This document shows, one piece after another, positions 3,322 to 28,290 of a DNA stretch of 29,684 nucleotides. A model generated the notes under the pieces. That model had not been told where the DNA came from, searched no databases, and saw nothing but the letters and a program-made list of their open reading frames with translations. A program made the translations under genes and the position numbers. This stretch comes from a virus. The stretch's first letter is position 1; each line of letters opens with the position of its first letter. The stretch lies in IMG/VR virus record IMGVR_UViG_3300017760_000053, positions 1 to 29,684 of that record; one strand, written 5' to 3'.

Positions 3322-4347
3322 ATGTTAACACCACCAATAAATAAAATACCAAGAATTCCAGATCAATTGACGTCTATAATAGACAATCAAGTTTCCAACC
3401 TATTAGATAATATTACATTTAATGTAACTATTGCAATTCAAGAAGCGGTAGCATTACCTGATGATATAAAATGTGATGATCCTAGAATAGAGGCATTACG
3501 TAAAAGAATCGAACAGGTAAATAAGTTAATAACAAAACTACAAGATATTATACCAATTATTGATAAAATTACATCTGGGCTACAAACTATTATTGGAATT
3601 GCAAATACGATTAAAGCTGCTCAATTATTAAATCCATTAACTGCTCCCATGGTAATTATTCCAGAATTGATATTAGCTCAAAACTTAACTATTGCAAATG
3701 CAGGAGAAGCTGTTAAAAAATTGATTAAAGGATTAGGTCCAAAAATAAATGCAAATTTAAATGAACTTATTGAAAGTTTAGTTCCTGTTGCAAATATAAT
3801 AGGACAAGCTTGTAATCAAAATGCAAATGATATAGGTATATCTGGAACACAAGGACTTCAAAATGCTCTTAATAATTTAGATTATAGTGATTCTATACCA
3901 GGATATCCTGGTGGTTCATGGATATTAATATCTGGATCTGGTGATTTAGGATCGCCAATTGGTGTGCCTCCTACACCCAAATCTCCATTTGATGATGGAA
4001 AAGGAACATGGATATGGTCAGGAGAAGGATATAATAATGTAAATGGTGTCGGTTGGGGATCTACCGGGAGTCGTCATGATGATTATACAATAGGTACTGA
4101 ATTTTATACACAACAAAATGTATCGGTATCTGACATGAAACAACATCTAGATACTATTAATAATCTTGTAAGCTCACAACAAAGTTTATTAACATCGTTA
4201 CAAGAAGCACCTGCACAATCATATGAAGGTATAGTACCTCCAAATGATGATCTAGGAAAAGTAGGAGATTATTATGTTGATACAAATGGACAACATATAT
4301 ACGGACCTAAAACAAATAATGGGTGGGGAACGCCCGTAAATTATTAA
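3322..4347 (+). CDS. Gly/Pro-rich virion structural protein with GDYYVDT-IYGPK end
   Basis: The 341-residue protein has three visible parts. Residues about 1-185 are helical, with a long hydrophobic stretch (about 85-130, rich in Ile, Leu and Ala) that could be a membrane-active or coiled segment. Residues about 190-260 are Gly/Ser/Pro/Trp-rich and likely extended. The end (residues 315-336) has the pattern GDYYVDT...IYGPK...GWG, which recurs at the ends of collagen-like and tail-fibre domains in many phages. It lies one base after the gp5-like stop with no clear Shine-Dalgarno, suggesting translational coupling. Position between the spike and gp25-like genes points to a hub or baseplate part. 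The family is not recognised. Confidence 0.55.
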   Translation: MLTPPINKIPRIPDQLTSIIDNQVSNLLDNITFNVTIAIQEAVALPDDIKCDDPRIEALRKRIEQVNKLITKLQDIIPIIDKITSGLQTIIGIANTIKAAQLLNPLTAPMVIIPELILAQNLTIANAGEAVKKLIKGLGPKINANLNELIESLVPVANIIGQACNQNANDIGISGTQGLQNALNNLDYSDSIPGYPGGSWILISGSGDLGSPIGVPPTPKSPFDDGKGTWIWSGEGYNNVNGVGWGSTGSRHDDYTIGTEFYTQQNVSVSDMKQHLDTINNLVSSQQSLLTSLQEAPAQSYEGIVPPNDDLGKVGDYYVDTNGQHIYGPKTNNGWGTPVNY

Positions 4348-4844: not shown

Positions 4845-5288
4845 ATGGCATATCAAGTTGTAACAGCTAATGATATAACTAAAAATCCGGATGTCGCAAT
4901 TGGAGTTAAATTTCCATTTAATGGCAAAGGAATTTTTGTAAAAAGTTTTACAACAAATGATCAAGCATTAACAAATATAAAAAGTTTATTATTAACAAGA
5001 AAAGGGGAACGATTTGAACAACCAAATTTTGGTACAGATTTATTAAATGTATTATTTGAACCAATAACTAGTGAATTAAAAAGCTTTATCGAAGATACAA
5101 TTACATCTGCAGTTGCATTTTGGTTACCATATATTGACATATCTAAATTAGATATAGTTACATTTGAAGATGATAATAATCTTACTCATGATATAAAAAT
5201 ATCAATTGGATTTACAGTTACTGGAATTGGATCTGAACAAACTATAATAATTTTTGCAGATCAAAATGGCATTGTAAAAATTGAATAA
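4845..5288 (+). CDS. gp25-like baseplate wedge protein
   Basis: The 147-residue protein is a compact member of the T4 gp25 / P2 gpW / type VI TssE family. The diagnostic stretch is LLTRKGERFEQPNFG with a following LFEP, equivalent to the 'EPR' core that nucleates sheath assembly. In contractile tails this protein joins the gp6-like ring and seeds the first sheath layer on the baseplate. The length is close to T4 gp25 (132 residues). AAGG at 4835-4838 serves the ATG. The stop is followed closely by the gp6-like gene, the usual partner order in contractile-tail loci. Confidence 0.9.
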   Translation: MAYQVVTANDITKNPDVAIGVKFPFNGKGIFVKSFTTNDQALTNIKSLLLTRKGERFEQPNFGTDLLNVLFEPITSELKSFIEDTITSAVAFWLPYIDISKLDIVTFEDDNNLTHDIKISIGFTVTGIGSEQTIIIFADQNGIVKIE

Positions 5289-5295
5289 GGATTAT

Positions 5296-7176
5296 ATGGA
5301 AGTAACAAAAGATATATCATATTTAGGAAAAGATTTTGGTCAATTTAGAAAAAATCTAATAGATTTTACAAAGCAATATTTTCCAAACGATTACACTGAT
5401 TTTAATGAATCTTCACCTGGAATGTTGTTTATGGAAATGGCTGCATATGTTGGAGATGTGTTAAGTTATTATGCTGATAATAATTTAAAAGAATCATTAT
5501 TAGAACAAGCATCAGAAAGAAAAAATATATATGATTTAGCTAAAGCTTTAGGATATAATGCAAAAAATGTTATTCCTTCATATGTAACATTAGACGTATT
5601 TCAATTAGTTCCTGCAATTGGTAGCGGTGTTAATAATAAACCAGATTATACATTTGCATTATCAATTAAATCTGGGTTGCGAGCTAAACAAAATAATGGA
5701 TCTGTTGAATTTAGAACATTAACAGAAGTAGATTTTGAAACTTCTTCGTCAATAAATCCAACCGAAGTAACCGTATATGAAAGTGATGAATCTACTAATG
5801 AACCTACATATTATTTGTTAAAAAAACAAGTTCCTGCGGTGTCTGGCGCAGTTAAAACAGCAACATTTAATTTTACATCTCCTAAACAATATGATAAAGT
5901 TGTTATAACAGATACTAATATTATTAATATTATTAGCATTACTGAATCAGATGGTGATGTATGGACAGAAGTTCCTTATTTGGGACAAGACACGGTTTTT
6001 GAAGAAGTTCCAAATTTAATACAAAATGATCCTGATTTTGCTCAGTATAGAGATTCATCCCCATATCTTTTAAAACTAAAGAAAACTGCAAAAAGATTTA
6101 TTACAAGATTGCGTAGCGATAATACATTAGAAATACAATTTGGCGCTGGTATTAGTGATAATAATGATGAAGAAATTATTCCAAATCCTAAAAATGTAGG
6201 AAATGGATTACAAGGAATGGGACATGGAGTTAATGTTGATATAGATCCTTCAAATTTTTTATATACTAGAACATATGGACAAGCTCCTTCAAATACAACA
6301 TTAACAGTTACTTATACAACAGGTAAAGGAGTTAGTGATAATATTACATCTGATTTAGTAACAGATGTCGAATTTGTAGAATATTATGATGACCCAAATT
6401 CAACTATTAATGCTGGTATGATTAGATTTGCAAAAAGTAGTTTAGCAGTAAATAATCCTAATCCTTCTTCTGGTGGTAAAAGTGCTGATACAGTGCAGGA
6501 TATAAAAAATAATGCAATGTCTAATTTTGCAACTCAGAATAGATTAGTAACAAAAGATGATTATATTATTAGATGTTATGCAATGCCATCAAAATTTGGT
6601 AGTGTATCAAAAGCATATATTGTTCCAGACGATCAATTATCTCAAAATAAATTCATTTCAAGTAGAGTTGCAAATCCATTAGCATTAAATTTACATGTAT
6701 TAGGATTTAATGGATCAAAACAATTAACACAACTCAATAATGCAATAAAATCTAATTTACAAAATTATTTGTCATATTATAGAATATTAACAGATGCTGT
6801 AAATATACAAGATGCATTAATAGTTAATATAGCATTAGATTTTGAAATTATTATAAGAAATAATTATAATTCAAATGAAGTATTATTAAATTGTGTAGAT
6901 GCAATGAAAAAATATTTTGATATTGATAGATGGCAAATAAATCAACCAATTGTTAAAACAGAAGTAATGAATGAAATAGGAAATGTTCCTGGAGTTCAAA
7001 ATGTAGTTGGAGTAACATTTAAAAATCAATTTGATACTGCCCAAGGTTATTCTGGGAATGTGTATGATATAACATCTGCTACTAAACAAGGAGTAATATA
7101 TCCTCCACTTGATCCTGCTATCTTTGAAATAAAATATTTAAATCGTGATATAAAAGGTAAAGTAGTAAATTTTTAA
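5296..7176 (+). CDS. gp6-like (P2 gpJ-like) baseplate wedge protein
   Basis: The ATG at 5296 is favoured over a TTG at 5281 because TAAGGA at 5286-5291 is well spaced for it. The 626-residue product is close to T4 gp6 (660). The N-terminal signature includes ESSPGMLFMEMAAYVGDVLS, ASERKNIYDLAKALGY and then beta-rich domains, as in the gpJ/gp6 family that forms the baseplate ring. The middle contains a GKGVSDNI segment and an MSNFATQNRLVTKDDYIIRC stretch typical of the family. The C-terminal third (NIALDFEIII..., NEIGNVPGVQNV) is the dimerisation part that links adjacent wedges. It works with the gp25-like protein encoded immediately upstream. Confidence 0.9.
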   Translation: MEVTKDISYLGKDFGQFRKNLIDFTKQYFPNDYTDFNESSPGMLFMEMAAYVGDVLSYYADNNLKESLLEQASERKNIYDLAKALGYNAKNVIPSYVTLDVFQLVPAIGSGVNNKPDYTFALSIKSGLRAKQNNGSVEFRTLTEVDFETSSSINPTEVTVYESDESTNEPTYYLLKKQVPAVSGAVKTATFNFTSPKQYDKVVITDTNIINIISITESDGDVWTEVPYLGQDTVFEEVPNLIQNDPDFAQYRDSSPYLLKLKKTAKRFITRLRSDNTLEIQFGAGISDNNDEEIIPNPKNVGNGLQGMGHGVNVDIDPSNFLYTRTYGQAPSNTTLTVTYTTGKGVSDNITSDLVTDVEFVEYYDDPNSTINAGMIRFAKSSLAVNNPNPSSGGKSADTVQDIKNNAMSNFATQNRLVTKDDYIIRCYAMPSKFGSVSKAYIVPDDQLSQNKFISSRVANPLALNLHVLGFNGSKQLTQLNNAIKSNLQNYLSYYRILTDAVNIQDALIVNIALDFEIIIRNNYNSNEVLLNCVDAMKKYFDIDRWQINQPIVKTEVMNEIGNVPGVQNVVGVTFKNQFDTAQGYSGNVYDITSATKQGVIYPPLDPAIFEIKYLNRDIKGKVVNF

Positions 7177-13853: not shown

Positions 13854-14519
13854 ATGGGATATTTAGATAATACATCAATAACAGTCGACGCAATATTAAC
13901 AAATAAAGGTCGTGAATTATTAGCACAAGGAGGAACTGCTTTTAATATTACACAATTTGCGTTAGGTGATGATGAAATAGATTATACATTATGGAATCCA
14001 AATGATACTAGAGGTACAGCATTTTATGGAGATGTTATTGAAAATATGCCAGTAACAGAAGCAATTCCAGATCAAACAAAAGCTTTAAAATATAGATTAT
14101 TAACATTACCTGGAAATAATGCACAATATTTACCAAAAGTTTCAGTTGCTCCAGCTACAATTGGTTCGCAATCAGGAAATGGATCAACACTTACATTTAA
14201 TGTATCAACATTAAACTTTTCAAATGCAAATTCAACATTAGGATATACAGCGGTTTTATCTAATAGTTCAATAGGAACATTAACTGCAGCAACAGGACAA
14301 GCATTAAGTAATGTAGCTCCTGGAATAACTGGAGATGCAACTTCTGTAGCAATCGTTGGTTTAGGCGGATTTAATTTAACATTGAATCCAAATCCTTCTA
14401 CATCACAAACTAGATCTACAACAATTACGTTTTTTGCAAATGAAACTGGTGGAGAAGTAACTGTTAATATAACACAAGCAAAACGTACGTTTACTGCCTC
14501 AACAACTTTGACTATTTAA
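13854..14519 (+). CDS. Structural protein with C-terminal Ig-like domain
   Basis: The 221-residue protein has a well-defined N-terminal domain: TVDAILTNKGRELLAQG, then FALGDDEIDYTLWN, a YGDVIENMP turn and LKYRLLTLPG. This signature recurs in baseplate-periphery proteins of marine T4-like phages. From about residue 100 it becomes a Thr/Ser/Asn-rich beta sandwich with alternating strands (STLTFNVSTLNFS, GEVTVNITQAK), most like a bacterial Ig or BACON-type fold used for surface adhesion. It heads a new block after an intergenic motif copy, with AAAAGGA as ribosome site. A role as a small decoration or fibre-attachment protein fits. The N-terminal domain has no assigned function that I can name. 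Confidence 0.6.
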   Translation: MGYLDNTSITVDAILTNKGRELLAQGGTAFNITQFALGDDEIDYTLWNPNDTRGTAFYGDVIENMPVTEAIPDQTKALKYRLLTLPGNNAQYLPKVSVAPATIGSQSGNGSTLTFNVSTLNFSNANSTLGYTAVLSNSSIGTLTAATGQALSNVAPGITGDATSVAIVGLGGFNLTLNPNPSTSQTRSTTITFFANETGGEVTVNITQAKRTFTASTTLTI

Positions 14520-14520
14520 A

Positions 14521-15630
14521 ATGAGAACAACTATGATAAATTTACTAAAACAACTACCAAATCAAGGACAATCATTATCATTTCAACAATTGGATCCAAC
14601 TAGAGATATTATTGATTCATCTCAAGAAACAATAACAGACGCATTATGGAGTGATGATCAGCCATTATTATCTACATTTTTTACCGCATCAAATTTATCA
14701 GTTTCTCAAAAAGCATACTATGTTAATGTATATCAAAAAGATCCTGTAGCAACTGGATCTGCTATTCAATTTGCATTAGCATATGGTGATCAACGAGGTA
14801 GCGGATCATTAAATAATGGTGGCGGCCAATTAGGAGATGCTCCTAGTAAAGCAATATATTCACAATATAAGCAATTGTTATTGGATGAGACAGTAAATGC
14901 GTTTACATTTAAAACCGGATCCGGTGTTTATACTACGGATTCAATATATGTAATAAATTTGCAACGAGCAAGATCAAAAGAAAGATTAGATCCAGGTAAT
15001 TGGGAATTACCATTAAGTGGTATTACATCTAGAGATACAGATGCAACAGGAAGTGTTGTAATAGGACCTTCTCATATAAAACTAATTGATAATTCATCAA
15101 CAGAAACAACATCTACACCGGAAATTGCAGATTCATATGATATTGTTTCTGGAAGTATTTCAAATGGAATTTTTAATTCAACTGCTCCTGAATATTATGG
15201 TAAAGTTTATCCACAACATAGCGTTATTATATTAGATGGAAGAAAATTAGATAATGAGTTAGGATTTAAAACAAATACAGGTTCTAATGCAGCTGGAAGT
15301 AACCATTATGGATTGTTTCATTCTGTTTCTGGATCTGCTTCTGCGGGGTCAGGATCGTTTTTAGCTAGAAATAAAGAAACTGTTAGTAGCACTATGTATT
15401 TTGTTAGATTAAATAATGCAGATTATAATTATTCAAATAATCCATCATATGTAACTGGAACTCAATTTGAAATTGCAAATCAAGGATATTGGACAGACCC
15501 AGTATCATATATAACTACAGTCGGATTATATAATGATCAACAAGAATTATTAGCTGTTGCAAAACTAAGTAAACCAATCAAAAAAGACAAAAAATCAGAA
15601 TTAAATATTCGTGTTAAATTAGATTATTAA
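14521..15630 (+). CDS. Baseplate-periphery/fibre protein, paralogue A
   Basis: The 369-residue protein has a helical start (MINLLKQLPNQGQSL; the ATG at 14533 is an alternative start), a Gly/Ser-rich beta core, and a C-terminal module at about residues 290-369. That module contains FVRLNNADYNYSNNP, YITTVGLYN, LLAVAKLSKPIKK and IRVKLDY. The same module ends the gene at 15681, so the two are paralogues with exchanged N-terminal parts. The core motif AYYVNVYQKDP and a GKVYPQHSVIILDGRKLD segment look like attachment-interface strands. It starts one base after the Ig-like gene. It is likely a repeated subunit at the rim of the baseplate or the base of a fibre. Confidence 0.6.
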   Translation: MRTTMINLLKQLPNQGQSLSFQQLDPTRDIIDSSQETITDALWSDDQPLLSTFFTASNLSVSQKAYYVNVYQKDPVATGSAIQFALAYGDQRGSGSLNNGGGQLGDAPSKAIYSQYKQLLLDETVNAFTFKTGSGVYTTDSIYVINLQRARSKERLDPGNWELPLSGITSRDTDATGSVVIGPSHIKLIDNSSTETTSTPEIADSYDIVSGSISNGIFNSTAPEYYGKVYPQHSVIILDGRKLDNELGFKTNTGSNAAGSNHYGLFHSVSGSASAGSGSFLARNKETVSSTMYFVRLNNADYNYSNNPSYVTGTQFEIANQGYWTDPVSYITTVGLYNDQQELLAVAKLSKPIKKDKKSELNIRVKLDY

Positions 15631-15646
15631 TTACACGTATTTTCCG

Positions 15647-15674
15647 TCTGTTATATTTATTATAAAATAACAGA
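15647..15674 (+). other. Stem-loop in leader of paralogue B gene
   Basis: Bases 47-54 (TCTGTTAT) pair with 67-74 (ATAACAGA), numbered from 15600. After a single bulged A at 15655, 56-59 pair with 63-66, leaving a three-base loop: 12 base pairs in all. The structure ends 6 bases before the ATG at 15681 and includes most of the purine-rich CAGAG that would serve as ribosome site. No T-run follows, so it is not a typical terminator. Confidence 0.5.
15653..15662 (+). promoter_or_regulatory. Recurrent intergenic motif ATATTTATTA, copy 4
   Basis: An exact copy sits in the 50-base gap after paralogue A and ends 18 bases before the ATG at 15681. Here it forms the inner part of the stem-loop at 15647-15674. 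Confidence 0.5.
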
Positions 15675-15680
15675 GTTTAT

Positions 15681-17261
15681 ATGTCAGATATCACAGAATA
15701 TACTGGTGAATCAGTAAAAGCTTTAAAAAAAGTAAATCCTACTGATTTAAAATTTACTCCAATGCAATTAAACAAAACGTTTTATATGTATTCTGGAAGT
15801 ACTTCGTTATATACACCATTAAACGCATATTATATAGAAAATATACCAGAAAATAATTTAAATTGGGGTGAACAAAATTTAAATGGTACATATAAATCAA
15901 TCATTTATAAATCATTGCAACAATTATTTTATAAAGATTCATATGATACGGAAATATTCTTATATAAAACATCTTCTATTTTTAGTATACCTCAAAAGAA
16001 AATGGGACAAAAAATTAAAGAAGATTCATTTACATATAATAGTGCATCATTAAGTTTAAAATCTAATAGATCTGGAAAAATATTTGATGAAAATATTAAT
16101 ATAGAATCTTTTCCTGATACATTAAATTTTTATGAAGGATTTAATAAATATTTTGATTCTTCAAATATAACATATGAATCGCAAAATATTAATTATGTTT
16201 CTGGAGTAACAACGAATAATGGAAATCAACAATCTATAGGATTATCGGCATTATTTTCCGGAAATGGTTATATATCATCTAGTTTAGAAGGAATATATGA
16301 TAAACAACATGATTATGCAATATCATTTTTTATATCAGGAACAAATAGTACAAATAATGATCAGTTGATATTAACAAAAGCAGATCAAATAACTAGAAGT
16401 CCATGTCCTTTTAATATTGAATTAAGCGGAAGTAATGAAATTAAATTTAGTATACGTGGTAATAATTCTAATTTAATTGCGTTAATAACATCTTCTACAG
16501 ACGTTTCTTCGTCTTGGACTCATGTAGTATGTCAAAAAACTGGTAGTGATATTGAGATGTATATTAATGGAACTAAACATTCATCTGGTAGTTTTGATTT
16601 TCTTCGTGATAATTTAAATACATATATAAATTCTCCAACATTTATTAATAACAATTATCATTTAAGTATTGGCGGTTATAACACAAATAGCACTAATCTA
16701 CAAGGATATTTAGATGAAATTAGGATTTATAATAAATCATTATCACAATTGGAAATAAGCACTTTATCGGACCGTAGCGAGGGTGGAGGATTATTACAAA
16801 CAAATATTATTGGAAATATATTTTCTGAAAAAGGATTTATTGTTATATCAACTCCAGATTATAGATATGATAATTTATTATCTACAAAATATACTGCAAG
16901 TTATCAAAGTACAATTACTTCATATGAAATGTCGACATTATGTCGTGTCGATGCAGGCGACTTTAATGTTACTAATAATCATAGTGCACATAATGATTCA
17001 AATATTCAATATTTAAACTATTTAACTGGGAGTGAGTTTTCCCCATATATTACATCAATAGGATTATATAATTCGACTGGAACTTTATTAGCAATTGGAA
17101 AATTGGGACAACCAATAAAAAAACGTAATGATGTTGATATAAATTTTTTAGTTAGAATGGATTTAGACATTAGACCTATTAAATCTGGATCTAGTTTGGA
17201 TAGCACAAATCAAAATTTTAATATAAATAATTCTAATACATATGGAGGATTATCATATTGA
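15681..17261 (+). CDS. LamG-bearing baseplate/fibre protein, paralogue B
   Basis: The 526-residue protein has an N-terminal region with YMYSGSTSLYTPLNAYYIEN, then a clear LamG/concanavalin-like sandwich at about residues 185-350. This includes HDYAISFFISG, SSWTHVVCQKTG, IEMYINGTKHSSG and YLDEIRIYNKSLS, the canonical strands of that fold. The C-terminal module (about residues 415-500) has CRVDAGDFNVTNNH, YITSIGLYN, LLAIGKLGQPIKK and NFLVRMDLD and matches the end of the upstream gene. LamG domains on virions usually bind glycans, so a receptor or exopolysaccharide contact is plausible. The stop overlaps the TTG start of the kinase-like gene. Its weak ribosome site may be masked by the leader stem-loop. 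Confidence 0.7.
   Translation: MSDITEYTGESVKALKKVNPTDLKFTPMQLNKTFYMYSGSTSLYTPLNAYYIENIPENNLNWGEQNLNGTYKSIIYKSLQQLFYKDSYDTEIFLYKTSSIFSIPQKKMGQKIKEDSFTYNSASLSLKSNRSGKIFDENINIESFPDTLNFYEGFNKYFDSSNITYESQNINYVSGVTTNNGNQQSIGLSALFSGNGYISSSLEGIYDKQHDYAISFFISGTNSTNNDQLILTKADQITRSPCPFNIELSGSNEIKFSIRGNNSNLIALITSSTDVSSSWTHVVCQKTGSDIEMYINGTKHSSGSFDFLRDNLNTYINSPTFINNNYHLSIGGYNTNSTNLQGYLDEIRIYNKSLSQLEISTLSDRSEGGGLLQTNIIGNIFSEKGFIVISTPDYRYDNLLSTKYTASYQSTITSYEMSTLCRVDAGDFNVTNNHSAHNDSNIQYLNYLTGSEFSPYITSIGLYNSTGTLLAIGKLGQPIKKRNDVDINFLVRMDLDIRPIKSGSSLDSTNQNFNINNSNTYGGLSY
17222..17229 (+). promoter_or_regulatory. T4-late-promoter-like TATAAATA
   Basis: This exact octamer near the end of the paralogue B gene leaves 28 bases before the TTG start at 17258, almost the same spacing as the copy at 3287. 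It could drive the kinase-like gene and those that follow. Chance occurrence is not excluded. Confidence 0.3.
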
Positions 17262-17812: not shown

Positions 17813-18289
17813 ATGAAAAATCATTGGCATTCAACAAATAATAAACAACGCCAAGCAGCATACAAATACGGATATAGATCTGGTTTGGAATTAAAAGTTG
17901 CTGATCAAATTAAAGAAGCAGAATATCCTGTAAATTACGAAACTGAAACATTGAAATATATTGTTCCACAAAAAAATTCAAAATATACTCCAGACTTTAT
18001 TTTTACAAAAAAAGATGGTAATACAATGTATATTGAAACTAAGGGACGATGGACAAGCACCGATAGGCAAAAAATGAAAAATATTTTAGCTTCAAATCCT
18101 GATATTGATTTAAGAATAATATTTCAAAACCCAAATCAAAAAATATCAAAAGGATCTAAAACAACATATGAATTGTATGCAACAAAAATTGGAATTAAAC
18201 ATGTTGCAAAAAAAGATATGCCGCTAGAATGGTTAAATGAGTGTTGTAAAGTTGACGAAAAGCCGAATGTAGTTAAATTTTTTGTTTAA
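17813..18289 (+). CDS. T7-type endonuclease I (Holliday-junction resolvase)
   Basis: The 158-residue protein matches the phage T7 gp3 family in length (149 in T7) and in all four active-site positions: E26 in YRSGLELKVA, D61 in YTPDFIF, and E75/K77 in YIETKGRW. The 35-residue spacing between the first two equals that in T7 (E20, D55). The enzyme cuts branched DNA such as Holliday junctions, acting as a dimer, to clear replication and recombination intermediates before packaging. T4 uses the unrelated endonuclease VII for this job, so this is a non-orthologous replacement. AAAGAAG serves the ATG. It lies upstream of the primase and Mre11-Rad50 genes, a coherent DNA-metabolism group. Confidence 0.9.
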   Translation: MKNHWHSTNNKQRQAAYKYGYRSGLELKVADQIKEAEYPVNYETETLKYIVPQKNSKYTPDFIFTKKDGNTMYIETKGRWTSTDRQKMKNILASNPDIDLRIIFQNPNQKISKGSKTTYELYATKIGIKHVAKKDMPLEWLNECCKVDEKPNVVKFFV

Positions 18290-18384: not shown

Positions 18385-18409
18385 GTTAGACCGATTAATT
18401 GTGTCTAAC
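18385..18409 (+). other. Stem-loop in the primase upstream region
   Basis: GTTAGAC and GTCTAAC are perfect inverted repeats of 7 bases with an 11-base loop. No T-run follows, so it is more likely an RNA structure or protein site than an intrinsic terminator. Confidence 0.35.
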
Positions 18410-18434
18410 CAATATTATATAATAACTAATACTT

Positions 18435-18462
18435 TTGATCTTTCAGTAAATTTTCTTATAAT
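18435..18462 (+). promoter_or_regulatory. Possible sigma-70-type promoter of the primase gene
   Basis: TTGATC at 18435-18440 and TATAAT at 18457-18462 are 16 bases apart. The expected start site, about 7 bases downstream, falls at or next to the ATG at 18470, which itself has no ribosome site. That would give a leaderless or near-leaderless message. The motif is plausible but unproven in AT-rich DNA. Confidence 0.35.
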
Positions 18463-18469
18463 ATATTAT

Positions 18470-19411
18470 ATGAAGAACTTAAAACTACTTCAATTATTAG
18501 AGTCTGTATTAGGTAAAGGAAAACAAACATCAGGTGATAATATTGCATTCTTTTCGCCGTTTACATCACATTATAAACCTAAATTAGAAATTAATATAAA
18601 TACAAATTCGGAAGGCCAAAATCCATGGCATTGTTGGATATCTGATAAAAAAGGACGTTCTATACATTCATTATTTAAACAATTAAATTTACCTAAATCT
18701 AAATTTGAAAAATTAAATAATATCATAGAAGTAACAAGATATCGTAATACTAAATCAGAAACTATAGAATATAAATTAGAGCTTCCAGAAGAATATCAAC
18801 CATTATGGATAGAGAAAAAATCTCCTGATTATAAAAATGCAATATATTATTTAAAAACTAGAGGAATTAATATATTTGATATAATTAGATATAGAATTGG
18901 ATATGCTGAATCAGGACCATATTCTGGTAAAATTATCATTCCTAGTTATGACAATACTGGCCAATTAAATTATTTTGTATCTCGAGCATTTTATCAAAGT
19001 GATTCATATAAACATAAAAATCCACAAACATCAAAAGATATAATTGGATTTGAAATGTTAATTAACTGGAATGAGCCTATTGTTTTATGTGAAGGAGCAT
19101 TTGATGCTATTACTATAAAAAGAAATGCAATTCCGTTATTTGGTAAAATTATACAACCAGTATTACAGAAAAAAATTATAGAAGAACATGTAACAGACAT
19201 TTACATATGTCTAGATTCAGATGCAATAACTAATGCAATAGAAATATCAAAAAAATTTATGGCTGAAGGATTAAATGTTTATTTCGTGGAATTAAAAGAA
19301 GATGATCCTAACGAATTAGGATATAAAAAAATAACAAAAAAATTAGAAGATACCTATAAATTCTCATTTGAAAGAATGATGGAATTAAAAATAGATTCAT
19401 TATGGAAATAA
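18470..19411 (+). CDS. DNA primase, gp61/DnaG-like TOPRIM protein
   Basis: The ATG at 18470 is chosen because the protein then opens MKNLKLLQLLESVLG; an in-frame GTG at 18401 adds a non-conserved leader. The 313-residue product has the T4-like primase N-terminal pattern SPFTSHYKPKLEI and WHCWISDKKG, then the TOPRIM catalytic core: IVLCEGAFDAI (E208) and ICLDSDA (D249, D251). It would make RNA primers for lagging-strand synthesis with a replicative helicase. Three of the four positions that normally carry zinc-binding cysteines are changed (S29, T32, S58; only C55 remains). The gene overlaps the next by 10 bases. The primase call is secure from the TOPRIM motifs and the context. Confidence 0.85.
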   Translation: MKNLKLLQLLESVLGKGKQTSGDNIAFFSPFTSHYKPKLEININTNSEGQNPWHCWISDKKGRSIHSLFKQLNLPKSKFEKLNNIIEVTRYRNTKSETIEYKLELPEEYQPLWIEKKSPDYKNAIYYLKTRGINIFDIIRYRIGYAESGPYSGKIIIPSYDNTGQLNYFVSRAFYQSDSYKHKNPQTSKDIIGFEMLINWNEPIVLCEGAFDAITIKRNAIPLFGKIIQPVLQKKIIEEHVTDIYICLDSDAITNAIEISKKFMAEGLNVYFVELKEDDPNELGYKKITKKLEDTYKFSFERMMELKIDSLWK

Positions 19412-22400
19412 AAGAATTAAACACAAATATAACAAGTATTGATAAAATATTTCATATATCAGATATTCACATACGCACATTAAAACGACACAAAGAATAT
19501 CAAGAAGTATTTGACAATTTATTTTTACACATTGCCCAACATGCAACTAATCAAAGCATTTGCGTATTAACTGGAGATATTGTACATTCTAAACTAGATA
19601 TGTCTCCGGAGTTAATTACCATGTTAACAAAATTTTTTAATGGATTTCATATACCTACAATTGTAATATTAGGAAATCATGATATGAATTTAAATAATTT
19701 ATATCGTCTAGATGCGATATCACCAATATTGGATGTTATTAATAATAAGAATATACATTTTATTAAAGATAATGGATTATTTAAATTTGGAAATGTAGTT
19801 TTTAATCATATGGCAGTAGACGTTGCTCCAAAGGATTACATAAAAGGTAAAGATTTTAATGCACATTACAAAATTGCATTACATCATGGAGCAGTACATA
19901 ATGCAAAAACTGACATTGGATTCCAAATATCAAATGATCATGTAACAACTGATTTATTTGAAGGACATGACTTAACATTATTAGGAGATATACACAAACC
20001 TGCTCAATTTCTAAATAAAGAAAAAACAATCGGATATCCAGGATCATTAATTCAACAAAATCATGGAGAGGCTCTAGATCATGGAATCTTAATATGGGAT
20101 CTTCCAGACAAAACATCGGAATTTATAGAAATAACAAATGACTATGGATATGTTACTTTTGAAGTAGAAAATGCACAAATTAAAAAATCACCACATAGAA
20201 TACCTGCAAAGCCTAGAGTCAGAATTAAATTTACTGATACAGATGCGTCTGATATTAAAAAATTAATAGCAACTATACGTAAAAAATATAAAGTTCAAGA
20301 TATATCAATACAACGTACTGCAAATCATATCGAAAGTAATAAAGACGGATCGATTGCAATAGGTAATGTTCGTGATGTAGAACATCAAAATAATTTAATA
20401 ACAAATTTTATAAATGAAAATTATCCTGATGCTAATAAAAAAGAATTAGATGCAATTAGACATATTAATAGAACAATAAATTCTAAACTACCAGTACTAG
20501 AATCGGTTAGAAACGTAACATGGTATCCAGTATCTTTTGAATTTGATAATATGTTTTCATATGGAGAAAAAAATAAAGTAGATTTTTCTAAATTATCTGA
20601 TGTTATAGGACTATTTGCATCAAATGCATCTGGTAAATCATCTTTATTAGATGCTATAATATATACAATATTTGATAAATGTAGTAAAACAAGTAAATCT
20701 AAAGAAGTTTTAAATAATAAAAAGTCTGTATTTAAAGGTATTTTTAAATTTAAGTTAAATAATAAATTATATACAATTGAAAGAGAAGGCATAACATTAA
20801 AACATGGACATGTTAAAGTTAATGTTAATTTTTATAATGAAGATGAAAACTTAAATGGAGAAGAACGAAGTGATACAAATAAAAGTATACGAAGATATTT
20901 AGGAACATATGATGATTTCATTTTAACTGCATTTTCGTTACAAGCTGATAATAATAATTTCATTGAAAAATCACAAAGAGAAAGAAAAGATTTATTATCA
21001 CAATTTTTAGACACTACTGTTTTTGAGCAATTATATCATTTAGCAGCAGAAGAAATAAAAGAAACAGCTGGTAAATTAAAAGAGTATAAAAAAATAGATT
21101 TTGGTTATATTATAAAAGAATCTGATGATATTATTATTGAAAATCAAGATACTATAATTGAATTAGAAAAAAATGATAATGATTTACAGAATTCAAGAAA
21201 TAATGTACAGAATGATATTGTTGAGTTAATTGAATCAAAACAACCAATGTCATATGATGGTCCAGATATATCTGAATTAGAAGCAACAGAAAATCAATTA
21301 ATTTCTAATATAGAAAATATAGAAATATCTATAAACAAACTAGAAGATATAATAACAAAGATGCCAAAATTTGATATAATATCTACAAATGAGTTAAATC
21401 TACAAAAAAATCAAAAAGATATATTAAACAAAGATATAAAAATTGTAACAAAAGAACTTACTCAATTGGAACAATTAATCAAATTACAACAACAAAAAAT
21501 AGATCATTTAAAGACTCATGAATATGATCATACATGTAAATATTGTATTTCCAATATTTTTGTTAAAGAAGCAGAAGAAGCAAAAATAGAATTACCAAAA
21601 AATAAAAAATTAGCAGATAATGCATTTACAAAACAACTTGAATTACAAACAAATCGTGATATAATTCAAGATACAATTTTAAAATATCAAGAACAAATAG
21701 ACTTATCTAATAAATTAGAAAAATTTGAATTACAATTGCAAGTACTTGAAAGTGATTTACAAACAAAAGAATCTGAATTAGAAACAACTAATGAGCGACA
21801 AGAATTATTTAAAAAGAATGAAACTGCTATTATTCATAATAAATCAATTGATGAAAAAATTAAAACAAAAAAGAATTTAATAATTGACATTGTAAATACT
21901 TTAAAAAGTATTACTGATAAAGTTAAATCAAATCATGGAGAAATAGAAGTTGCAAAAACCAAAAAGAAAACTGCGTTAGAACAATTAGAAACATATAAAC
22001 AATTAGAAACTGAATATAAAGCATATGAATATTATTTACAGTCTGTAAAAAGAGATGGGGTGCCATATGAATTAATCAAAAAAGCATTGCCTAAAATAGA
22101 AACAGAAATAAATAATGTACTAGATCAAGTTGTAGACTTTAATATGGTATTAAATACAGATGGTAAGAATATTAATGGATATATTATTTATGATGAGGAT
22201 AATTTTTGGCCGTTAGAGCTAACTTCTGGTATGGAACGATTTATGAGTTCATTAGCAATACGTGTAGCTTTAATTAATGTATCTGCATTACCTAGGCCAA
22301 ATTTTATTGCAATAGATGAAGGATGGGGTAGTTTAGATAGAGAACATATTTCTGCGGTAACAAATTTATTTGAATATTTTAGAACAAAATTTGACTTTTC

Positions 22401-22497
22401 AATTATTATATCCCACGTAGAATCAATGAGAGATATGGTAGATAACTTAATTGAAGTAAATAAGATAAATAATTTCAGCCAGATTCAACATACATAA
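19402..22497 (+). CDS. Fused Mre11-Rad50 (gp47-gp46) recombination nuclease
   Basis: A single 1031-residue reading frame joins two proteins that are separate in T4 (gp47, 339; gp46, 560). The N-terminal third is a calcineurin-type nuclease: SDIH (D21, H23), TGD (D59), GNHD (N92-D94), LHHG (H161/H162) and LGDIH (D196, H198). From about residue 370 it is a Rad50/SbcC ATPase: Walker A ASNASGKSS (406-414, first Gly replaced by Ala), a long coiled coil with a zinc hook CKYC (712-715), signature TSGMERFMSSL (941-951), Walker B FIAIDEGWGSLD (968-979) and switch His H1005. Such complexes resect DNA ends for recombination-dependent replication and host DNA breakdown. No internal stop or frameshift is visible. 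The start overlaps the primase stop. Confidence 0.92.
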   Translation: MEIKELNTNITSIDKIFHISDIHIRTLKRHKEYQEVFDNLFLHIAQHATNQSICVLTGDIVHSKLDMSPELITMLTKFFNGFHIPTIVILGNHDMNLNNLYRLDAISPILDVINNKNIHFIKDNGLFKFGNVVFNHMAVDVAPKDYIKGKDFNAHYKIALHHGAVHNAKTDIGFQISNDHVTTDLFEGHDLTLLGDIHKPAQFLNKEKTIGYPGSLIQQNHGEALDHGILIWDLPDKTSEFIEITNDYGYVTFEVENAQIKKSPHRIPAKPRVRIKFTDTDASDIKKLIATIRKKYKVQDISIQRTANHIESNKDGSIAIGNVRDVEHQNNLITNFINENYPDANKKELDAIRHINRTINSKLPVLESVRNVTWYPVSFEFDNMFSYGEKNKVDFSKLSDVIGLFASNASGKSSLLDAIIYTIFDKCSKTSKSKEVLNNKKSVFKGIFKFKLNNKLYTIEREGITLKHGHVKVNVNFYNEDENLNGEERSDTNKSIRRYLGTYDDFILTAFSLQADNNNFIEKSQRERKDLLSQFLDTTVFEQLYHLAAEEIKETAGKLKEYKKIDFGYIIKESDDIIIENQDTIIELEKNDNDLQNSRNNVQNDIVELIESKQPMSYDGPDISELEATENQLISNIENIEISINKLEDIITKMPKFDIISTNELNLQKNQKDILNKDIKIVTKELTQLEQLIKLQQQKIDHLKTHEYDHTCKYCISNIFVKEAEEAKIELPKNKKLADNAFTKQLELQTNRDIIQDTILKYQEQIDLSNKLEKFELQLQVLESDLQTKESELETTNERQELFKKNETAIIHNKSIDEKIKTKKNLIIDIVNTLKSITDKVKSNHGEIEVAKTKKKTALEQLETYKQLETEYKAYEYYLQSVKRDGVPYELIKKALPKIETEINNVLDQVVDFNMVLNTDGKNINGYIIYDEDNFWPLELTSGMERFMSSLAIRVALINVSALPRPNFIAIDEGWGSLDREHISAVTNLFEYFRTKFDFSIIISHVESMRDMVDNLIEVNKINNFSQIQHT

Positions 22498-22521: not shown

Positions 22522-25500
22522 ATGAAAAAAGTAACAACTATAGTTCGTAATCTAGATCAACTATCTACATATATCACCGATCAATCATCATTATCTAGTA
22601 ATATATTTAATATTACCGAATTTCCATTGGAATTTACTATTGGTAAAAATTTAATTAAATTAAAAGGAAATACTAATATATTTGAAATTGGTACTGAATT
22701 AGCAATTGAAATACTTGATTCTAATAGAAATCCAATTTATCATGAAATTATTGATTATATTGAAAGTGATACTTCTAGAGTATTAGCTGTTTATGTTTAT
22801 GATACAACTCCAGCTGGTAATTGTACTGTAACTATTGCTGCAGTTTTAAATCAATTATATACAGGAGAACAAATTCCAACCGTTTGGAGAAATAAATTAA
22901 ATGTCAAATGGACAAAAAATATATCAGTTAACAATAAAGCAACTAATACTTCAGAAATAATATTCGAAGATACAAAACTTCCAACAGTAGAAGTTTCAGA
23001 ACAAATAGGAGTTCGATTAGATAGAATATATGAAAATAACGAACAGTTTCCAATATATACAACGGGATTAATAGAATTTGAAACACGGAACAATAGTGTA
23101 TTAGCAAAAATAACCGGTGGAGAATTTGATCCAAAATTTTCTGGAGGAACATTAACAGTTACTAATCCAGTCAATGCATTACCAATACCGTTATTAACTA
23201 CTAGCTCTGCTAAACCGTATACATCAAAAATTAAAAAAATATTAAATAAAGATTTTATTGAATTAGATGATCGATATGTATTTACTTATAGTCAAAGTTT
23301 AACGCAACACGAATTTATTAAATTTGATGCATCACCATTTTCTTTATCATATGAAGCAGTACCTACATATATACCAACTCAACATTCAGAATCATTTGCA
23401 TTAACACAAATAAAAAACTTAAATCCAGGGACTGGCGACGTATCAAGAATTAAATTGTATATTAATAGCTCAGGTACTATTGGAACATATGAATTAATTA
23501 ATGATATATCATTAGAACCTACAGAAATATTTGTTGATGCAACTGGATCTATTTTTCCAGATGTAAGTATTGGTTATTTTACATCGCAAAGTATAATTGA
23601 TTCATATTGGGAAGTTAATCAATACAATGGAAAAAATATAGTTACAAAACCAACATTAACATTTTCAACTAGTTCATTAAATAATTCATTAATTGTTACT
23701 CCATCTGTTTCATATTCTGGAGATCAAAATGCAATTGTATTACAAACAACTAGTTCATTACCTGGAGTATTTGTTAAAGATTCAGAATATAAAATAATAT
23801 TTGATGCAATTGGGATAAAAAATTCTTTAAGTAATCTAGAAAATCCAAAAATTTGTATATATTTATCCGGATCTGCATTTGATTATGATAATACTAATTT
23901 GCAAAATGATTATTATCCTATATTATTAGGTAAAAAAATAGGAGAATATGAAACTCCAAATAATAATCAACGATTAGATGATTTACAATTTAATTTTACT
24001 GCAGACAAAACAGGAAATGGATCATTATTAATATTAATTGAATCAGGACAATGGCAATTTTCAGATATTAGAACATTAACATCTGCAGAAAAAGGATTTA
24101 CAGAAAATTACACAAGATTTAGAACTGACATCCCTGTAAAACATAAATCTGATAATGAAATAAAATTTAAAATTGAATATTATAACGCTGCTGGAGTTAA
24201 AAGTGATCATGAAACAATAGTAACAAATCAAGTATTTCAAGGAGGAAATAGATATATAGACGGCGGATTTTCAATGTTAACAGGTTCATTAACTGTTGCT
24301 GATACATTAAATTCTGGAGTTGAAATAGTAGGATTACAAAATACTGGATATATTAGATCATTAGGTTATGATGGGTTTAACCAAGCAATGACTGGACGTG
24401 GAGGATTTTTATTATTTTCTGGTTCTGCATTACCAAATCAATTTGCAACATCATATCAAGGTGTTGGTTTGGAAATGGTTGCTGATTCAAATAACTTTTT
24501 TAAATTTAGAACAGATCCAAGTGGATTAGAAATACAAACAGAAAAATTCTTTTTAGGTAATCCATCTACACAATTTATTAGTGGATCAAATGGACAATTA
24601 GAAATATCATCTTCTGGATATCATATAAGACCTTCCGGAGATATAACAGCATCTAATTTTCTAATGGAAGGTGGAGTCATAACAAATAATGTAACTATTT
24701 TAGGATCATTATCTGCAAATAGTATTTTAACTCCCGCACTAATTAACGGAAATCCAGCAACGCCAGCAAATGCATCATCATCAATATCAGATCAAGGATT
24801 AGCAATATTTAGATCTGCGTCAATTGCTGGATTTAATATATCGCCAGAAGAAATACGATCACCTGGCGACGCACTTCGTTTAAAATCTATAGGACAAATA
24901 ACAGCATCGGATGGATTTTTATTTGGATCAAAGGCAGCAAGTAATTTTATACAATTTGCTGGAAGCACATTAACAGTAAGAGGTGATTTATCAGTTGATC
25001 AAATATTTACGCCTGCTTTAATAGGTGGGAGTCCTTCAAATGAAACAAATGCATCTTCATCTATAAAATCAGATGGATTTGCAAAATTTGTATCTGCATC
25101 TATAGGGGGATGGGGTATTACTACAAGTTCTATAGAGGGTGGTAATCTTATAATGAAGCCAGAAGGTATTTTGCAAACAAAAGATTTTGCTAGCGGATTC
25201 AAAGGTTGGAAAATATCATCTGAAGGAAACGGAACTGCAGAATTTGAAAATGTAAGAATTAGGGGTACTTTAAGAACAACTACATTTGAAAAAGAATCTG
25301 TAAACGCAGTTGGTGGTCAACTATGGGTTACTAACGCAACAACATTGACTGGATCAAATATAACTGCTAATGCAACTACAATGTCTGTAGAAAATGCTAG
25401 TGGTTTTGCTATAGGTGAAATTCTATTAGCTAAAAAAGTAGATGCAACTGGATTTCAGACAGAATATCTACTAATCGAATCTTCGTCCATAGATGGAAAT

Positions 25501-28290
25501 AACACCGGTTCGGACGAAGTACATGGAAGAATATTTGTACAGCGAGGATACGGTAGTGGCTCAGAAGGAAGTTTTGTTGGAGATTTAGCTTCAACATCTC
25601 AATCATATGATGCAGGACAAGTTATTGTATCAACTGGGTTGAGTGGTAGTGGATATATTAAAATGAATGCAAATCCTAGAGATTCAAATACTCCATTTAT
25701 TGACATAGTAGAAAGAACAGGTAGCGGATTATATGATGTAGAATTAAGATCTAGATTAGGAGATTTAAGTGGATTATCAAACTCATCTTATGTATTCGGA
25801 AATCCTAGTCCAGGATTTGGATTAGCAACTGATAATGTGTTCTTACAAGGGGGCATAATAGCCAATACAGGGTCAATTGCTGGTATTGAAATGGAAGCTG
25901 GAAAATTATATATAGGAGCCGGAAATCATGCAAATACAGACACTGGGTTTTATGTAGATTCAGGATCTAATTTTTCATTAGGAGATAAATTAACTTGGGA
26001 TGGGTCATCATTAGTAGTTAGAGGACAATTAAGATTAGAATCGGGCGAAAATGTTCAAGATGCAATAAATGAAGCTACTGCTTCAAATACAGCAAAATCA
26101 TTAATATTAACATCTGATTCACAAGTAATGGCATTTGATAGTGCATCAGATAATACAGCTACTCCATCAAATATTATATTTAGTATAGCACAACAAAATT
26201 TAACCGCTAGTATATCCGCTAGTAACGTTACTATAACAACAGCTCAATCTACTAATGTAACTGGCTTTGATTTTGATACTGGTAGTATAACAGTAAATTC
26301 AGCTGGACTATATAGCGGAATTGTATCTGGAAGTATAACGTTTGCAGGAGGACTTTCTGCAGGAGGATTAGAAACTGATAAAGATAATTTTCCTGTATCT
26401 ATTACAGTTAACGGAGATTCATTAACAGATACAACATCATTATTTAAAGTGCAAGGCGGAGCAACTGGATCAGACGGTACTCCAGGAGTAGATGGTACAG
26501 ACGCAGTAACTGCATTTCTAACAAATGAATCTCACACGTTTGCATCTAATGTTGCAGGAACAATACCGTCATTTGTAGGTGGTGATACTGATATGGAAGT
26601 ATTCGAAGGGGTTACTAATAAAACTTCTGCTTATTCATTTGGAAGAGTTAATGGAGTTGGAGTATCTTCTAATATAGTATCAAATACAGTTACTGTAACA
26701 GGATTAACTGGAGATACTGGATCAATAGCTATAACAGCAACATCTGCAAGTACATCGTTAACTAAAACAATGTCATTAGCAAAATCTAAACAAGGAACAG
26801 CTGGTACTGCAGGAGCAACTGGTCCAACAGGACCAAATTTTGATTTCTTAACTGGATCAATATCTGAAGTTGATACTACTGGCGGATTAAATGCTGGATT
26901 ATTAATGACATCTAATGTATTAGGATTTCATGGTAATATTACAGCCGGCGATGGAACTAATGCAACTATCAATGATTTTGTTACGTTTTTAGATTCTTCT
27001 GGTAACTTTTTTATAGGTTCTGCATCAGCAGGCCATTTTGCATATTCTCAAGCAACTGGTCAATTATTAGTATCAGGATCAGAAGTAGATATACAAACTC
27101 CAAAATTCTTTTTAGGATCAACTAATAATCAATTTGTTTCAGGAGCAAATGGAAATATAGAAATATCATCTTCAAAAATTCATATTAAACCAGACGGAGA
27201 TTCTATAGTTAGAAAGATCAATGCAGAAGAAGGTACAGTTGGAGGATTTGAAATATCTTCATCTAGAATAGAAGGCATCGATTCGATTGTTTATAGTGTA
27301 ACAATAACAGCTGATGGCAATCAAGGAGAAGGCGAAAATGTATTCGTCATAAGTAATTTTAGTTCCACGCCTTCATATCCTGGAGGTGCTAATGCATTAT
27401 TGAATCTTGGAGGATTAGAATTAATAAATAACTCAAATAATTTTTTCTTTGATAGTAATGACACTCCGACCAGCGCCGCGCCTATAAGAGATTATAATAC
27501 TGGTACCGGTGTTATAAGACTAGATTCTGGGTTTACTGTCAGCACCGATGGAGAGGGAGTTTCATTTACAGTGAATGTAACAGATGACCGTACGGTAACA
27601 CCATTTGTAGTTCAAGGAGGAAATTCAACTAATTTCCTTGCCGATGCAACTGCTAAGTCATTACTTATACCATCTGCATCATACGGAGAAACAGGAATTC
27701 AATTAGAATATAATTCTGGAACACCAAGATTTTTTGCAGGTAATGCAAATGGAGGATTTTTTAAATTTGATGGTACATCAACTCAAATAAGTTCATCCAA
27801 TTTTAATATTGATAGTAATGGAGATGTATCAATGGCCGGTACAGTTACAGCAACAGCTGGTCAGATAGGAGGATTTGCAATAACGCCAACTGCTATATCT
27901 AGTTCAAACAATAACTTAATATTAAAATCTTCTGGAAATATAACTGCATCAAATGCGTTATTTAATGGACGTGTAACTGCACAACAATTTACCGAAAAAA
28001 CAATTAAAGTTACTAATTCAAATCAATCAAGTTATCTTAGAACCGTTACTGGAGGAAAAAATTTAGTATTTGATGGTTCATTAGGAGGAGATATTATTAT
28101 GAATATGATTATAGCAGTTCCTGCCGCTAGTGCATTTGTTATTAAAGATATAGAATTACTAAATACAGGTTCTGCTAGTAACGTAACATCAACCTCGGTT
28201 AATGTAATTATACAAACATCAGGAATGCAATTTGACACTACAGGTATTAGTGACGCAATAGATGACGCTTTTCCTCTAGTTGCAAGTTAA
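22522..28290 (+). CDS. Giant modular tail-fibre protein
   Basis: The 1922-residue protein is built of beta-rich modules. Residues about 1-560 are domains of mixed beta type. From about 590 the chain turns to fibre repeats: a KFFLGNPSTQFISGSNG unit at 675 and a matching KFFLGSTNNQFVSGANG unit at 1528, and two tandem copies of a 93-residue module with TPALI at 737 and 830 followed by NASSSI and GFNI/GWGI turns. Two short collagen-like Gly-X-Y stretches (about 1313-1327 and 1425-1439) flank an Ig-like domain containing ESHTFASNVAG. The end carries another GGF-ITPTAIS repeat and a hydrophobic VVNVIIQ-type closing strand. It is probably the long receptor-binding fibre or tail tip. The ATG follows an A-rich leader with weak Shine-Dalgarno. 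Confidence 0.8.
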   Translation: MKKVTTIVRNLDQLSTYITDQSSLSSNIFNITEFPLEFTIGKNLIKLKGNTNIFEIGTELAIEILDSNRNPIYHEIIDYIESDTSRVLAVYVYDTTPAGNCTVTIAAVLNQLYTGEQIPTVWRNKLNVKWTKNISVNNKATNTSEIIFEDTKLPTVEVSEQIGVRLDRIYENNEQFPIYTTGLIEFETRNNSVLAKITGGEFDPKFSGGTLTVTNPVNALPIPLLTTSSAKPYTSKIKKILNKDFIELDDRYVFTYSQSLTQHEFIKFDASPFSLSYEAVPTYIPTQHSESFALTQIKNLNPGTGDVSRIKLYINSSGTIGTYELINDISLEPTEIFVDATGSIFPDVSIGYFTSQSIIDSYWEVNQYNGKNIVTKPTLTFSTSSLNNSLIVTPSVSYSGDQNAIVLQTTSSLPGVFVKDSEYKIIFDAIGIKNSLSNLENPKICIYLSGSAFDYDNTNLQNDYYPILLGKKIGEYETPNNNQRLDDLQFNFTADKTGNGSLLILIESGQWQFSDIRTLTSAEKGFTENYTRFRTDIPVKHKSDNEIKFKIEYYNAAGVKSDHETIVTNQVFQGGNRYIDGGFSMLTGSLTVADTLNSGVEIVGLQNTGYIRSLGYDGFNQAMTGRGGFLLFSGSALPNQFATSYQGVGLEMVADSNNFFKFRTDPSGLEIQTEKFFLGNPSTQFISGSNGQLEISSSGYHIRPSGDITASNFLMEGGVITNNVTILGSLSANSILTPALINGNPATPANASSSISDQGLAIFRSASIAGFNISPEEIRSPGDALRLKSIGQITASDGFLFGSKAASNFIQFAGSTLTVRGDLSVDQIFTPALIGGSPSNETNASSSIKSDGFAKFVSASIGGWGITTSSIEGGNLIMKPEGILQTKDFASGFKGWKISSEGNGTAEFENVRIRGTLRTTTFEKESVNAVGGQLWVTNATTLTGSNITANATTMSVENASGFAIGEILLAKKVDATGFQTEYLLIESSSIDGNNTGSDEVHGRIFVQRGYGSGSEGSFVGDLASTSQSYDAGQVIVSTGLSGSGYIKMNANPRDSNTPFIDIVERTGSGLYDVELRSRLGDLSGLSNSSYVFGNPSPGFGLATDNVFLQGGIIANTGSIAGIEMEAGKLYIGAGNHANTDTGFYVDSGSNFSLGDKLTWDGSSLVVRGQLRLESGENVQDAINEATASNTAKSLILTSDSQVMAFDSASDNTATPSNIIFSIAQQNLTASISASNVTITTAQSTNVTGFDFDTGSITVNSAGLYSGIVSGSITFAGGLSAGGLETDKDNFPVSITVNGDSLTDTTSLFKVQGGATGSDGTPGVDGTDAVTAFLTNESHTFASNVAGTIPSFVGGDTDMEVFEGVTNKTSAYSFGRVNGVGVSSNIVSNTVTVTGLTGDTGSIAITATSASTSLTKTMSLAKSKQGTAGTAGATGPTGPNFDFLTGSISEVDTTGGLNAGLLMTSNVLGFHGNITAGDGTNATINDFVTFLDSSGNFFIGSASAGHFAYSQATGQLLVSGSEVDIQTPKFFLGSTNNQFVSGANGNIEISSSKIHIKPDGDSIVRKINAEEGTVGGFEISSSRIEGIDSIVYSVTITADGNQGEGENVFVISNFSSTPSYPGGANALLNLGGLELINNSNNFFFDSNDTPTSAAPIRDYNTGTGVIRLDSGFTVSTDGEGVSFTVNVTDDRTVTPFVVQGGNSTNFLADATAKSLLIPSASYGETGIQLEYNSGTPRFFAGNANGGFFKFDGTSTQISSSNFNIDSNGDVSMAGTVTATAGQIGGFAITPTAISSSNNNLILKSSGNITASNALFNGRVTAQQFTEKTIKVTNSNQSSYLRTVTGGKNLVFDGSLGGDIIMNMIIAVPAASAFVIKDIELLNTGSASNVTSTSVNVIIQTSGMQFDTTGISDAIDDAFPLVAS

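Follow-up and report, generated by a model that had tools for sequence, protein, structure and literature searches.

A phage-encoded Mre11-Rad50 fusion of the R555 type and the sequence signature of its relatives

A Mre11-Rad50 fusion in a single reading frame

Mimivirus R555 is a fusion of Mre11 and Rad50 in which Mre11 comes first, and its 2011 description (Yoshida, Claverie and Ogata, PMC3175470) lists twelve more fusions, in bacteria (some plasmid-borne), in eukaryotes and in Bacillus phage 0305phi8-36. The same paper argues that having Mre11 ahead of Rad50 suits the Thermotoga complex (~28 Å, linker of 9-12 residues) and notes that R555 departs from DxH...GDxxD...GNHD by a His for the third motif Asp and carries an Asp at the place of PfMre11 His206. 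They further describe R555-like aquatic reads that are enriched in viral fractions, many of them suspected to be phage-derived, and R555-like environmental genes whose neighbours are Twort/SPO1-type primases and gp3-type endonucleases; the environmental fusion was confirmed in only a few long sequences (PMC3175470). An SbcC-SbcD fusion goes unmentioned in the accessible part of PMC7824862. Here we describe a gene of the R555 type in a viral DNA of 29,684 nucleotides (IMG/VR record IMGVR_UViG_3300017760_000053, positions 1 to 29,684; "the window" hereafter). A sequence-only reading of this DNA implied that the fusion was new. It is not: fusions, the geometry argument and the suspected phage origin of environmental copies all appear in the 2011 paper (PMC3175470).

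The gene is one open reading frame (ORF) with an ATG start and no internal stop, which confirms the uninterrupted frame of 1031 codons noticed at the outset. Its parts are as follows.

19402..22497, + strand: Mre11-Rad50 fusion gene, 1031 aa (ORF, Pfam, PHROG, AlphaFold2 model, fold matches)
19438..20316, + strand: Mre11/SbcD nuclease and capping domain, residues 13-305 (S. aureus SbcD 7dog_A, Z 24.1; Metallophos at 15-199)
20377..20484, + strand: helix-loop-helix, residues 326-361, at the site of the Rad50-binding helix-loop-helix of Mre11 (predicted helices 326-340 and 346-361)
20485..20520, + strand: tether of 11-12 residues, residues 362-373 (362-372 without helix or strand in the model)
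20521..22494, + strand: Rad50/SbcC part, residues 374-1031, heads and coiled-coil arms (E. coli SbcC 7yzo_D, Z 30.9; PHROG_77)
20617..20640, + strand: Walker A ASNASGKS, residues 406-413 (sequence, conservation)
21535..21546, + strand: zinc-hook CKYC, residues 712-715 (Cys conservation among loci)
22222..22338, + strand: signature TSGMER, Walker B and D-loop, residues 941-979 (sequence, conservation)

Both halves are recognised by profiles. Metallophos (E 2.9e-7) and AAA_23 (residues 382-611, E 2.5e-6) exceed their Pfam curated cut-offs, and the SbcC-like PHROG_77 covers residues 273-1029 (E 2.9e-46). A phmmer search against solved structures returned solely Rad50/SbcC chains, 13 distinct sequences at E ≤0.001 with a best value of 7.3e-11. 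In an AlphaFold2 model built from 39 sequences (mean pLDDT 82.8, pTM 0.46), the part that starts at residue 374 superposes on E. coli SbcC, beginning at the first residue of SbcC (rmsd 3.6 over 350 residues), and the stretch 13-305 matches the S. aureus SbcD nuclease together with its capping domain (rmsd 3.5 over 272 residues). The VIA-align matches mostly concern the Rad50 part; among the 50 listed, the nuclease domain is represented by 7dog_A alone. The coiled coil spans about residues 539-882 of the model, and a low-confidence stretch, 307-319, lies between the capping domain and the helix-loop-helix, which by its position would be that of Mre11.

The best full-length structure matches of the fusion are proteins of mimivirus relatives. 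In BFVD, Tupanvirus comes first (E 1.8e-73, 1317 columns, 25% identity), with Harvfovirus, Yasminevirus, Terrestrivirus and Catovirus also among the first matches; the phages pT24 and LMTA-57 hold ranks 11 and 12.

The Mre11 motif residues are D21/H23, G58-D59-x-x-H62 and G91-N92-H93-D94. All the motifs claimed for the nuclease are present, with a rider that the claim lacked: motif II reads GDIVH, and motif V reads GDIH instead of GHxH. On the Rad50 side, the Walker A, Q-loop, signature, Walker B, D-loop, H-loop and zinc hook are all in place and, as for the CKYC already recognised from the sequence, conserved across related loci.

Relatives of the fusion and continuity of the frame

Three IMG/VR scans gave 454, 113 and 20 confirmed candidates, of which we kept the best, 178 loci in total. 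A single frame stays open across the whole protein, reaching within 40 model positions of each end, in 165 of the 178. This ratio is no estimate of how frequent fusions are in phages generally, since the loci were picked for their similarity to fusion proteins and ordered by score. These 165 loci comprise 146 distinct DNA and 136 distinct protein sequences, and four of them run off their contig inside the 40-position margin. Ten more are open but truncated by contig ends; three are interrupted, by one junction stop each in L031 and L050 and by a break near residue 208 in L188. Over 3093 nucleotides, the gene and its nearest relative disagree at 29; the relative comes from a 172,973-nt IMG/VR contig. 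In Microcystis phage Mel-JY01 the fusion is annotated as one coding sequence (CDS). A contig search gave a single relative with 38% identity; its contig, labelled as a Chloroflexi metagenome-assembled genome, may itself be viral.

For a single pair, the window and L012, the ratio of non-synonymous to synonymous rates (dN/dS) is 0.049 over residues 1-315 and 0.062 over 381-1031, and dN is 0 across residues 316-380. Judged from these two sequences, the fusion is under purifying selection, strong on the nuclease half.

A missed stop or frameshift near 20380-20530, where two adjacent genes would have been merged by error, is what the junction stops of L031 and L050 (2 of 178 loci, residues 349 and 374) might recall. 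Against such an artefact stand the many assemblies in which the protein is open, the fixed length of the tether, the absence of amino-acid change over residues 316-380 in the pair above and the CDS of Mel-JY01. We give it practically no chance, since independent assemblies rule it out: the fusion is real, conserved and well delimited.

The two stops just mentioned are the only single in-frame stops among the 178 loci, and both lie in the nuclease-ATPase junction. That region (residues 326-380) holds about 4% of the one-step-to-stop chances, in a comparison made post hoc. The stops are either sequencing errors or recent re-splitting; intact copies exist.

Another interruption was seen in LR756508.1, a 484-kb uncultured phage (L002). 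An insert of about 0.9 kb (5704-6621 of that locus) breaks the fusion gene just past motif V; it contains a 305-aa ORF with a TnsA-like endonuclease domain (E 5.8e-6) and looks like an invading homing element. Rfam gave no match at the gathering threshold in the window, L002, L031, L050 or L010, and therefore no intron is called in L002. The distant relative L188 loses its frame at about 3540-3720, likewise just past motif V and close to the point at which the L002 insert sits; no large insert is present.

Fused and split genes, and the residues that set the fusion clade apart

As the sequence-only reading noted, T4 has two genes where the window has a covalent fusion. Among nine further named phages, the genes are separate in six: T4, S-PM2, SPO1, HTVC008M, Erwinia phage pEa_SNUABM_47 and Moorella phage MTATph1. 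The remaining three, Listeria LMTA-57, Tenacibaculum pT24 and Xanthomonas phiXF1, have one ORF, and nuclease and ATPase also share an ORF in Mel-JY01 and LR756501. PHROG_77 finds no match in pT24, whose Rad50 part rests on other evidence, including its BFVD match. Fusion is not common to all T4-like phages, since T4, S-PM2 and HTVC008M are split; it is nonetheless frequent within one gp23-bearing phage group.

A FastTree phylogeny (47 sequences, 1026 columns), which leaves out cellular sequences and R555, parts the split-gene group, LMTA-57 and phiXF1 included, from all other fusions with support 1.000. The fusion clade is apart from T4, S-PM2 and HTVC008M (1.000). LMTA-57 adjoins the split SPO1 (1.000), and phiXF1 falls less firmly (0.674) among split phages. 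This arrangement agrees with repeated fusion and suggests that LMTA-57 and phiXF1 represent separate events. In LMTA-57 (Herelleviridae; L005, 3001-6030) nuclease and ATPase occupy a single ORF of 1009 aa for which SPO1 has two genes; it is either an independent fusion or an error specific to that record.

The nuclease part is invariant in all 165 open loci at D59, H62, H93, D94, H162, D196 and H198, and the ATPase at G411, K412, S413, Q514, S942, G943, E945, D972, E973, D979 and H1005. D21 is retained in 163 of 165, with gaps in the other two, and H23 gives way to Gln in 27. The first hook cysteine is present in every locus and the second in 164.

Motif V has the form GD-x-H in 165/165 loci, and the signature motif reads SG[ML]E in the clade, SGME in the window. 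A canonical Walker A has Gly at positions 1 and 4. In the window both are Ala; the substitution of the first Gly had been seen from the letters, a remark that understated the change, and it is a trait of the clade: position 1 is Ala in 164 of 165 loci and position 4 is never Gly. In all six split-gene phages, by contrast, motif V reads GH[FI]H and both Walker A places are Gly. The motif II His is not specific for fusions, because the split SPO1 and Erwinia phage have it too.

From residue 360 to residue 374 the spacing is 15 residues in 162 of the 165 loci, while the lengths of the nuclease, capping domain and arms vary. This is as expected for a geometrically constrained tether and suits the earlier idea that fusion fixes the geometry of nuclease and ATPase head.

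Genomic setting, proposed function and known systems

The fusion gene is preceded by two genes on the same strand.

17813..18289, + strand: phage endonuclease I of the T7 gp3 type (PF05367, E 2.6e-34; phrog_945)
18401..19411, + strand: DNA primase, overlapping the fusion start by 10 nt (phrog_47; tblastn)

A primase relative lies upstream on the same strand in every one of the 146 loci with at least 1100 nt there, and an endonuclease I in 73 of the 133 with at least 2000 nt. The best phage matches of the primase include Mel-JY01 and LR756508, both with the fusion gene (interrupted by the insert in LR756508), and ORF023 of Staphylococcus phage Twort, which the 2011 paper names among the primases neighbouring R555-like genes (PMC3175470). 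Baseplate wedge genes occupy 4845-7176 of the window, and a tRNA search of it found none.

Downstream of the fusion, a 1922-aa ORF (22522-28290) has a relative in 117 of the 141 loci with room for it; Pfam and PHROG searches gave it no match. At 13854-17261, a 526-aa ORF contains Laminin_G_3 and a 221-aa ORF has a sub-threshold BACON match; the products are possible surface or adsorption proteins.

On a 173-kb contig with a near-identical fusion gene (G001), the one phrog_77 match and the one PF00149 match both fall inside the fusion, and no further Mre11 or Rad50 match was found outside it. Among the other genes of G001 are one of the RecA family (E 4.4e-56) and one for a gp23-type capsid (E 1.9e-77); the capsid search gave no match in 14 control genomes. 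Given this capsid, the RecA-family gene and the sole Mre11/Rad50 match, the virus is probably a distant T4 relative whose fusion takes the place of gp46/gp47. A T4-type capsid and a RecA-family protein are encoded in all four longer records examined (G001, G002, G003 and Mel-JY01), and G002 carries a second phosphoesterase gene.

We propose that the window encodes an R555-type fusion, very probably a single-polypeptide machine that processes DNA ends in the manner of SbcCD. Two chains would dimerise through their Rad50 heads, with ATP, and through their Mre11 domains, so that one gene yields M2R2, and the zinc hook would connect the arm tips. The enzyme would trim or open DNA ends, from which the phage RecA-family recombinase could start recombination-dependent replication as with T4 gp46/gp47. 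By analogy with T4 such a role is likely, and it fits the RecA-family and primase genes. We infer the dimerisation, the docking in cis and both the nuclease and the ATPase activity.

Several observations weigh against this proposal. The pTM of 0.46 limits what the model says on the placement of domains, and the NCBIfam SbcC match (E 1.7e-20) stays far under its cut-off, at 72.7 versus 478.5 bits. In PADLOC, the Lamassu protein LmuB ranks first. G001 may be incomplete. In Flavobacterium phage immuto, a primase with 41% identity adjoins a 260-aa 'exonuclease', with no fusion within the 10.9 kb examined; because of this arrangement, the primase is not strictly linked to the fusion. Finally, the Asp of motif V, the Walker A without its canonical Gly residues and the Gln for H23 in 27 loci could mean a changed activity.

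These residues are the starting point for a reading in which the protein has drifted from gp46/gp47 work and serves as a DNA tether or a specialised endonuclease, not a resection enzyme. D196 in every locus and the Walker A of the clade speak for it, all the more as six of six split-gene phages retain the usual motif V and both Gly residues. Yet the rest of the metal site is conserved, the nuclease half is under strong purifying selection in the one pair compared, the motif II His is unremarkable, and an Asp is still able to hold a metal; we consider the drift unlikely. An anti-phage, inter-phage defence ATPase akin to Lamassu is far less credible still. The PADLOC LmuB profile does match (E 2.7e-21) and Lamassu chains are present among the PDB matches, but the profile match is restricted to residues 388-1021, the N-terminal half forms an entire nuclease of the SbcD type, the neighbours are a primase and endonuclease I, and Lamassu ranks under SbcCD and Rad50 in the Foldseek list. 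The ATPase part is of the widespread SMC-like kind.

The preferred reading, end processing by a fused SbcCD-like enzyme, leaves room for altered chemistry, as the sequences of motif V and Walker A may indicate. One could go further and see in the whole package (covalent fusion, length-fixed tether, Asp for His206, Ala or non-Gly Walker A, SGME) a mechanistically distinct single-chain Mre11-Rad50, with the nuclease permanently docked in cis and metal chemistry and an ATP cycle unlike those of SbcCD/MRN, as the standard form in a large gp23-bearing phage group. We regard this as a doubtful extension.

Full-length fused frames are now available on 165 IMG/VR loci. They add long-contig evidence for the phage origin suspected by the 2011 authors (PMC3175470), together with a clade signature; the remaining biology is as expected. 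With its stoichiometry fixed at 1:1, a single-chain Mre11-Rad50 that occurs naturally and has 1031 residues would make a convenient model.

Compared with R555, the window has every feature of the type that could be tested in its sequence: Mre11 then Rad50 in one frame; His for the third motif Asp (H62), found in some split phages too; Asp at the place of PfMre11 His206 (D196, 165/165 loci, against His in 6/6 split phages), with numbering matched by motif and not by alignment; a helix-loop-helix (326-340, 346-361) and a short linker (362-372/373) before Rad50; and a Twort/SPO1-type primase and gp3-type endonuclease as neighbours. It differs in length, 1031 aa versus 1351 for R555, and in belonging to a tailed phage. 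With T4 gp46/gp47 it shares a Rad50/SbcC-type ATPase and an Mre11-type nuclease, and fusion-bearing contigs have a gp23-type capsid and a RecA-family gene; T4, in contrast, uses two genes, and the clade differs from it in motif V, Walker A and signature. With E. coli SbcCD it shares the predicted fold of both parts, whereas the E. coli enzyme has two subunits and the arms encoded in the window are short.

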